64,000 nt of DNA, from NCBI RefSeq assembly GCF_024464595.1, contig NZ_JANHAW010000001.1, forward strand, positions 124,001 to 188,000, written 5' to 3'. Below the pieces are notes generated by a model. The model made no database searches, had not been told where the DNA came from, and saw only the letters and a list, made by a program, of their open reading frames with translations. This DNA comes from Halobellus litoreus (GTDB lineage Archaea > Halobacteriota > Halobacteria > Halobacteriales > Haloferacaceae). Made by a program: the position numbers and the translations under genes. Positions 6,376-62,201 of this stretch are shown here, one piece after another. Numbering within the stretch: the first letter of the stretch is position 1; each line of letters opens with the position of its first letter.

Positions 6376-6455
6376 TGCGCGGGACAGGATTCGAACCGGA
6401 GCGAGACGGTCGCGCTCACATCATTCGCGCGCTGCGACTTGCAGGGCTCGAATCC
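6376..6455 (-). repeat. Fold-back element built from the tRNA-Leu(TAG) 3' end
   Basis: Bases 6376-6397 repeat exactly (22/22) the last 22 bases of the adjacent tRNA (6487-6508), from the second half of the T-stem to the discriminator base. Bases 6445-6455 are an inverted T-arm copy that can pair with 6387-6397 (11 bp, one G.U on the minus strand). The loop between them carries an inner GTCGC/GCGAC stem and the core GCGAATGATGTGAGC. An equivalent element follows the other tRNA-Leu of this window at 62126-62201. Confidence 0.8.
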
Positions 6456-6487
6456 GTGCCTGCTCGTTCGTCGCTGCGCTCCTCACT

Positions 6488-6569
6488 GCGCGGGACAGGA
6501 TTCGAACCTGCGGACCCCTATGGGACAGCGTCCTAAGCGCTGCGCCGTTGGCCACTTGGCTACCCGCGC
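6488..6569 (-). tRNA. tRNA-Leu (anticodon TAG)
   Basis: An 82-base class II tRNA. The acceptor stem is GCGCGGG/CCCGCGC, and the anticodon arm is CAGCG-CTTAGGA-CGCTG, giving anticodon TAG (reads CUA). A long variable arm and the T-loop GGTTCGAATCC are present. CCA is not encoded; the discriminator base is A (6487 on the + strand). Its 3' end is duplicated 111 bp downstream. Confidence 0.95.
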
Positions 6570-6651: not shown

Positions 6652-6960
6652 ATGTACAGCGCCCGGGATCGGGTCGATAACGAACAGTGGCTGACTCGTA
6701 TCGAACGCGCCGCGGATCGGTTGGACCTCGGTTCCGAGGCCCGATCTTACGCGGCCGATATGTTCCTCTCTGAAGTCCCGGACGAGGACCGGTCGAAACG
6801 TGCCGTTGCGGCAGCGAGCTTGTACGCCGGTTCCCTCATCGCCGGAGAAGAGCGACCCCAATCGCGGGTCGCCGACGCGATGGGCGTGAGTCGGCTCAGC
6901 GTTCAACAACACTGGAAGCCGATTCTCGAATCCGCGGGCTTTCGATCGCCGTCGTGGTAG
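6652..6960 (+). CDS. Single-repeat TFB/TFIIB cyclin-fold protein
   Basis: A 102-aa protein covering just one cyclin-like repeat of transcription factor B: RIERAADRLDLGSEARSYA, then KRAVAAASLYAGSLIAGE, then the helix-turn-helix SRVADAMGVSRLSVQQHW. The N-terminal zinc ribbon and the second repeat of a full TFB are missing. Haloarchaea carry many full TFBs plus short proteins like this one. Without the zinc ribbon it cannot recruit RNA polymerase in the normal way, so a DNA-binding or competitor role is my inference. It is a single gene between tRNA-Leu and coaD. Confidence 0.8.
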   Translation: MYSARDRVDNEQWLTRIERAADRLDLGSEARSYAADMFLSEVPDEDRSKRAVAAASLYAGSLIAGEERPQSRVADAMGVSRLSVQQHWKPILESAGFRSPSW

Positions 6961-7043
6961 GCTCTTAGCTGTGTGTCGGCAGTTCGGTGACCGTGACGAA
7001 CTAGCTCGAAAACCGTACTCAGGAGACTAACCCGCTAGGGCGG

Positions 7044-62001: not shown

Positions 62002-62085
62002 GCGGGGGTGGCTGAGCCAGGCCAAAGGCGGCGGACTTAAGATCCGCTCCCGTAGGGGTTCGTGGGTTCAAATCCCATCCCCCGC
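62002..62085 (+). tRNA. tRNA-Leu (anticodon TAA)
   Basis: An 84-base class II tRNA. Acceptor stem GCGGGGG/CCCCCGC; anticodon arm GCGGA-CTTAAGA-TCCGC gives anticodon TAA (reads UUA). Long variable arm and T-loop GGTTCAAATCC are present. CCA is not encoded; the discriminator is A at 62086. Its 3' end is repeated 110 bp downstream. Confidence 0.95.
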
Positions 62086-62125
62086 ACTCGATGTCCGAGC
62101 GCCAGCGAGGACTCGATAGACACGC

Positions 62126-62201
62126 TGGGATTTGAATCAGAGAGCGTCGCGAACGGAGTGAGCAGCGCGACCGTGGTTCAAATCCCATCCCCCGCACTCG
62201 A
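62126..62201 (+). repeat. Fold-back element built from the tRNA-Leu(TAA) 3' end
   Basis: Bases 62175-62201 repeat exactly 27 bases of the tRNA and its flank (62065-62091). Bases 62126-62138 are an inverted T-arm copy pairing with 62175-62187 (13 bp, one G.U). Between them lie an inner stem GTCGCG/CGCGAC (62146-62151 with 62166-62171) and the core GCGAACGGAGTGAGC. A similar string (GCGAGCGAAGCGAGC) follows at about 62206-62220. Confidence 0.85.

Follow-up and report, generated by a model that had tools for sequence, protein, structure and literature searches.

The element beside tRNA-Leu(TAG) belongs to a family of small cassettes built on tRNA 3′ ends (tRNA-tail cassettes) that is found throughout the class Halobacteria and almost nowhere else. 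The unit order is the tRNA tail (positions 52–73), an H1 trailer with a GA-rich hairpin, an inverted T-arm (anti-T), a core, and a second copy of the tail, often followed by another H1. Units are about 75–170 bp long and consist of hairpins only, with no integrase gene or other cargo. The initial annotation of the window, that is, the whole 64,000-nt stretch of DNA analyzed here (C1:124001–188000 of a 3.86-Mb genome), reported two such loci; both are real, but they are two members of a class-wide family rather than a local pair.

The host gene of the first element, tRNA-Leu(TAG), lies on the minus strand at 6487..6569 (ARAGORN; Rfam RF00005), and its 3′ tail at 6487..6508 forms the first copy of a 22-bp direct repeat. 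On the same strand follow a GA-rich trailer segment that extends from the tRNA end to the inverted arm (6457..6486), identified as H1 from its sequence and the class-wide position of H1; the anti-T (6444..6456), with the minus-strand sequence CGGATTCGAGCCC, which pairs with tRNA positions 52–63; a type 2 core hairpin, TGCAAGTCGC...GACCGTCTCGC (6399..6443), of the core type also present at tRNA-Lys(TTT); and the second exact copy of tRNA positions 52–73 (6376..6397), which ends at the discriminator base. The exact 22-nt repeat (6376–6397 versus 6487–6508), its spacing of 111 bp, and its stop at the discriminator base are as originally described, the copy corresponding to positions 52–73 in standard tRNA numbering, and the inverted T-arm, first placed at 6445–6455, is present at 6444–6456. 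A chance origin of the repeat was rejected because its last 20 nt occur at just 2 places in 64 kb, versus 0.01 expected. Upstream of the same tRNA gene, a short open reading frame (6653–6961) resembles, by eye only, a fragment of a TFIIB-type cyclin fold.

The second element, beside tRNA-Leu(TAA) on the plus strand (62002..62087; ARAGORN), was likewise confirmed as a 27-nt repeat (62065–62091 and 62175–62201) with an inverted arm at 62126–62139. Its parts, all on the plus strand, are the tRNA tail, positions 52–73 (62065..62086), an H1 trailer hairpin of the CCGAGCGCCAGCGAGG type (62087..62126), the anti-T, GGGATTTGAATCA (62127..62139), a type 1 core hairpin, GAGAGCGTCGCGAACGGAGTGAGCAGCGCGACCG (62140..62173), and the second copy of positions 52–73 (62175..62196), from which the repeat continues 5 nt into the flank (62197–62201). 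The kinship of the two elements had been argued from a match at 12 of 15 core positions; this match is not significant on its own, with 3 matches in the window versus 1.47 expected. The matching 15-mer is a common haloarchaeal hairpin motif, GCGAAC-N3-GTGAGC, and the outer core types of the two elements differ. Homology of the two is therefore drawn from the genome-wide set described below and not from the 15-mer; a covariance model (R1) scored them at 1.8e-16 and 2.2e-10, both being members of its training set. The sequence GCGACCGT, said to follow the core in both, stands immediately after the motif in one element but 3 nt later in the other. As a separate observation, the common haloarchaeal motifs CGAGCGAAGCGAG and GCGAACGGAGTGAGC form hairpins with tandem sheared G.A pairs across the class (for example, at window positions 62093–62113 and 62149–62163); GCGAAGC is an ultrastable DNA mini-hairpin.

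Within the home genome, 21 of 43 surveyed tRNA genes are followed by a duplicate of their own 3′ end, or 24 when three found later are included, mostly 75–130 nt past the tRNA and with the inverted T-arm 31–91 nt ahead of the copy. The R1 model, trained on 22 home-genome elements, matched 25 places in this genome, all of them tRNA-linked. Three of these were apparent orphans, and a dispersed repeat was rejected because all three were traced to tRNA genes: one marked a tRNA-Pro(CGG) that had escaped Rfam, and two were elements displaced by integrative elements at the tRNA end, one now 3.7 kb from tRNA-Gly(GCC) and the other ∼21 kb from tRNA-Val(TAC). In three congeners, 21/43, 16/45, and 21/43 tRNAs were occupied; the same tRNAs tended to be occupied in G000 and G126 (Fisher p = 6e-5), and the comparison with G218 was not significant. 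A role as terminator was rejected, since T-runs near occupied and empty tRNAs showed no clear difference.

Beyond the genus, R1 matches were obtained from 240 of 242 Halobacteria genomes and 73 of 74 genera, with at most 20 candidates scored per genome. One of the two genomes with zero matches, Haloquadratum walsbyi, has the element at 0 of 42 surveyed tRNAs. In a sample of the phylum, all 11 genomes of the same order matched R1, as against 3 of 69 others; the three matching genomes outside the class (G284, G300, and G310) belong to one genus and gave a single weak match each (E about 7e-4), possibly a related element of a sister lineage. The exact two-sided pattern occurred in 77 stretches in the 257 Gb of an 85,000-species genome collection, and all stretches named to species, genus, or class came from Halobacteria (Halocatena included), two contigs from metagenome-assembled genomes being labeled only “Euryarchaeota archaeon.” A same-strand tRNA lay upstream of 74 of 80 pattern sites, with a copy matching at least 18 of 21 positions in 70, and most of the remaining sites were at contig edges. 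Among 2.9 million viral contigs, R1 and the pattern matched only beside a full tRNA-Glu, and the cassettes were absent from the phage and plasmid records searched; short viral patterns were unspecific as evidence. A viral, phage, or plasmid origin was rejected because R1 or pattern matches there occurred only next to a full tRNA.

The anatomy of the cassette is regular. Of 143 copies, 122 begin at G52, and the end is mostly at the discriminator, position 73; past that base, agreement is largely what chance would give, apart from a minority of cases that are true duplications of the unit. Tandem arrays reach five or six units, and one reads A-B-C-B-C, each unit type having its own H1 and core. 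In the computed fold, the anti-T, core, and tail copy join in a single long hairpin whose stability is limited to the tRNA-sense strand (the better-folding of the two strands in 158/167 elements, p = 5e-27), so that the folded molecule would be RNA or one DNA strand. The anti-T pairs with tRNA positions 52–65, comprising the T-loop and the 3′ strand of the T-stem, and pairing of the acceptor drops towards background. In the core stem, tandem G.A loops often alternate with short Watson-Crick helices; at least one such loop was present in 82 of 167 elements, compared with 4 of 167 after the cores were shuffled.

Both arms resemble the local tRNA, in different ways. In 153 of 167 elements, no other isoacceptor matched the copy as well as its own tRNA did, with 8 ties, and in 160 of 167 the inverted arm was closer to its own tRNA than to the average of the others; at every difference between orthologous tRNA tails of the three congeners, the copy agrees with the tRNA of its own locus. 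Together with cores common to several tRNA loci, this strongly supports the earlier proposal of a shared core with local arms. The accompanying idea that the arms are taken from, or corrected by, the resident tRNA holds for the direct arm and needs correction for the inverted one, which changes mainly via G.U wobble. An exact direct arm was found in 111 of 167 elements, and the match extends to the unpaired acceptor part (66–73), which pairing alone cannot explain; the direct arm is thus copied or homogenized, acceptor part included. The inverted arm spans positions 52–65 only. Given the copy's base, and with position 53 excluded, 60 anti-T transitions gave G.U and 15 gave A.C (Fisher p = 1e-11); at position 53 itself, U.G was found in 111 of 167 elements. 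This wobble bias points to an inverted arm selected for pairing on one strand and not mechanically copied. Covariation was visible at positions 57, 59, and 62 and exceeded that in shuffled controls, a comparison that is inflated by related sequences.

Among 47 full copies from the home genus, 15 are almost perfect except for one extra nucleotide at T-loop positions 57–59, and one further copy has an insertion at position 61; the anti-T of the extra-base copies still matches the tRNA. The extra base could mean that the spare end has been disarmed, or it could be what is left of a joint made within the T-loop. Such copies occur at Lys-TTT, Phe, Val-CAC, Ser-CGA, Leu-CAA, Gly-TCC, Ala, Glu, and Pro-CGG (G000, G126, and G218), and one form tends to be common within a genome, CAACATC in G000 and CACAATC in G126.

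About six core types are shuffled among the tRNA loci. The type switches at orthologous Leu-TAG, His, and Ser-GGA and persists at Arg-CCT, Arg-GCG, and Leu-CAG, and cores at orthologous tRNAs resemble each other more than other cores do (p = 0.001). Preferential spread of cores within one genome was rejected, as cores from the same genome were no more alike than those from different genomes (p = 0.85). In G007, nearly identical cassettes are found at Arg-TCT and Arg-CCT, and the first tail copy of an array at tRNA-Leu(TAA) is of the Leu(TAG) type and not that of its own tRNA, an apparent transfer of a cassette between tRNAs before its arm was reset, judging from these sequences. This 2.1-Mb genome, with 40 R1 matches and arrays of up to six units, is also the densest seen.

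Comparison of orthologous loci revealed how cassettes differ in presence. At Gly-GCC, the tRNA is followed directly by the flank in G126, by H1, a core-containing segment (X), the copy, and then the flank in G218, and by an integrative element, an att repeat, H1, X, the copy, and the flank in G000; this is precise presence or absence at the 22-bp repeats and is consistent with gain and loss alike. Precise deletion mediated by repeats has been published for haloarchaea (PMC3119063), and such deletion would remove cassettes and restore the tRNA. The att repeat (attR) of a Haloquadratum tRNA-Ala provirus is exactly tRNA 52–73; other integrative elements have shorter att blocks of about 13–14 nt. 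A GCGAAC-GTGAGC motif next to the Haloquadratum provirus repeat is probably there by chance. At Val-TAC, homologous ends of an integrative element (CTCGGATTACG...) abut the tRNA in G000 (L014/L284) and the cassette tail copy in G218 (L252), from which it appears that the copy is able to serve as an attachment site. The other integrases found were located at the tRNAs themselves, and a general preference of integrases for the copy as a decoy, with one case only, was set aside as unsupported.

We give about an even chance to an account in which these class-wide cassettes, inserted exactly at the tRNA 3′ end, are gained and lost via their 22-bp repeats, while selection acting on a folded single strand, most probably trailer RNA, preserves the hairpin. 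A cassette of the form H1, anti-T, core, and tail copy (52–73) would insert at the tRNA 3′ end, singly or in tandem; recombination between the two 22-bp tails would remove it and restore a perfect tRNA, and new cassettes would enter there too, through recombination that is either repeat-anchored or of the integrase type. Since the functional tRNA end could be supplied by either tail, repeated exchange together with selection on the tRNA would keep both identical, including the unpaired acceptor. The anti-T and core would be maintained by selection on the folded strand, most likely tRNA-trailer RNA, in which the tail copy may act as a decoy that holds the anti-T and keeps it off the tRNA's own T-arm. 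In folds computed for minimum energy only, leaving out modification and cotranscriptional folding, the anti-T of full trailers is paired with the copy in 33 of 46 cases, whereas in trailers cut short ahead of the copy it intrudes into the T-arm of the tRNA in 35 of 46, which suggests that the copy could act in this way. Folding of the sense strand fits single-stranded DNA as well as RNA. Several facts weigh against the account: the cassettes have no enzyme tied to them, the copy serves as an attachment site in one case and several integrative elements sit at the tRNAs themselves, and Haloquadratum lives without cassettes. A pure spare-end model, moreover, does not fit the extra T-loop base in about a third of home-genus copies, which would break a tRNA into which it was swapped. 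A stronger version, which we entertain tentatively, sees a mobile class of cassettes, universal in Halobacteria, that would dock at tRNA 3′ ends, spread between tRNA genes, move in and out via the 22-bp block used by viruses, and adjust both arms to match whichever tRNA hosts them; this would amount to an array system resembling that of integrons and might offer a landing pad by which the tRNA gene itself is spared.

Among the alternatives, the cassettes might be non-autonomous mini integrative elements, selfish units of ∼110 bp whose 22-bp ends are att sites and which are moved in trans by the tRNA-specific tyrosine recombinases of haloarchaeal viruses or plasmids, the hairpin being a folded recombination or strand-selection site with a logic comparable to that of integron attC. 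The 52–73 boundary shared with the provirus att repeat, the use of the copy by the G218 integrative element, the alternating A-B-C-B-C array, the occurrence of common cassettes at different tRNAs, and the strand-specific hairpin all agree with this; however, the viral contigs contained none save beside the full tRNA-Glu, the phage and plasmid records contained none, no excised circle was seen, and insertion of a foreign tail would break the tRNA, so that spread across tRNAs needs an extra step, and we regard the reading as doubtful. It is also unlikely that the cassettes are a functional RNA and nothing else, that is, a trailer hairpin acting in cis in pre-tRNA maturation, stability, or termination, with core similarity reflecting conserved or convergent structure and copies kept for their use in the transcript. 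Such a role would suit the fixed orientation relative to the tRNA, the sense-strand stability, the wobble bias, the covariation in the hairpin, and the in silico exchange of anti-T partners between truncated and full trailers, these last being the minimum-energy folds qualified above, but it leaves unexplained the exactness of unpaired copy positions 66–73, the switching of core types at orthologous tRNAs, and the complete lack of cassettes in Haloquadratum.

Ordinary att scars, remnants of integrated viruses or plasmids deleted beside tRNA genes, have in their favor the partial tRNAs that haloarchaeal annotators report beside full ones, the reported repeat-mediated deletions (PMC7921747, PMC3119063), and the identity of the 22-nt repeat with one provirus att repeat. 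Scars would nevertheless not be expected to have in common a structured core, an inverted T-arm conserved through wobble, and a constant spacing at roughly half of the tRNAs across a class, and where integrative elements occur in these genomes, the repeats they leave lack an anti-T; scars are thus very improbable, and as the sole explanation they are refuted by the shared core and anti-T. Equally remote is an origin as functionless DNA fold-backs made and corrected by replication template switching at a near-palindromic T-loop: the T-arm is quasi-palindromic and the inverted arms do track the tRNA, but such correction would be strand-symmetric and yield perfect complements, in conflict with the prevalent U.G at position 53 and the excess of G.U over A.C.

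The cassettes invite comparison with several known systems. The tyrT (rtT) repeats downstream of tRNA-Tyr in Escherichia coli are tandem, ∼178 bp long, and each end in ∼19 nt of the tRNA 3′ end; in this they resemble the cassettes, whereas rtT is known from one locus in one lineage and is not known to have a core common across tRNAs. An Rfam search around the element returned RF00005 (tRNA) only, with no match to rtT or another family. The t-elements of Haloferax mimic the acceptor and T-arm for RNase P and tRNase Z and are likewise a tRNA-derived structure in a transcript; identity with them was rejected because the T-arm copy of the cassettes pairs with the anti-T, this pairing ends at the acceptor boundary, and the acceptor lacks its own 5′ partner. 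The tandem arrangement and the strand-specific hairpin, imperfect and with a variable tip, recall integron attC arrays, as may the junctions at a GTT-containing box, but the cassettes carry no open reading frame as cargo, their repeat is the tail of the resident tRNA, and they are not known to be served by an integron integrase. Islands and proviruses integrated at tRNAs by tyrosine recombinases, with the tRNA 3′ end as attL/attR, also produce a direct repeat of that end, in the Haloquadratum provirus the same 22-nt block of 52–73 (PMC3119063); in contrast, the cassettes are ∼100 bp, gene-less, folded into a hairpin with an inverted T-arm, arranged in tandem, and present at half of the tRNAs. 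The haloarchaeal PATEs and other palindromic elements of the IS200-IS605 type are similarly small palindromic repeats and are lost by deletion between 22-bp repeats (PMC3119063), but PATEs are not tied to tRNAs and have no arms that track them; a PATE or MITE identity was rejected because 25 of 25 R1 matches in the home genome are tRNA-linked and not dispersed insertions. The cassettes therefore fail membership in the islands (having no genes), rtT, PATEs, and t-elements and work somewhat like an att-flanked cassette array.

No description of the cassettes as a family was found in the open-access literature, and they are apparently newly recognized as such. “Partial tRNAs” adjoining a full tRNA are mentioned in passing for Haloferax gibbonsii (PMC7921747) and are probably these cassettes seen as remnants; the passage concerned recognizes neither the core, the anti-T, nor a family. 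Annotations of “partial tRNA” or attR in haloarchaea may often be cassettes and not scars. As a feature at a large share of the tRNA genes in nearly every genome of an archaeal class, the cassettes offer a natural experiment in the concerted evolution of 22-bp repeats, bear on how tRNA genes cope with being a favorite site of viral insertion, and might bring to light a trailer RNA new to tRNA maturation; the various readings are testable in Haloferax volcanii, where genetics is easy.

Two further arrangements were noted. The cassette at tRNA-Leu(CAG) (L055/L240/L279), absent in Haloquadratum and G218, lies between the tRNA and a gene that by inspection resembles ribosomal protein L18e, a position that would place it in the leader of the L18e-like mRNA if the two were co-transcribed. 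Downstream of Gly-TCC, Arg-TCT, Arg-CCT, and Asp (L010, L007, L021, L085, and L289), there is a third unit type whose copy retains the acceptor, on which the unit folds, but has a CCCGCTCGC...GCGGGA hairpin in place of the T-loop.
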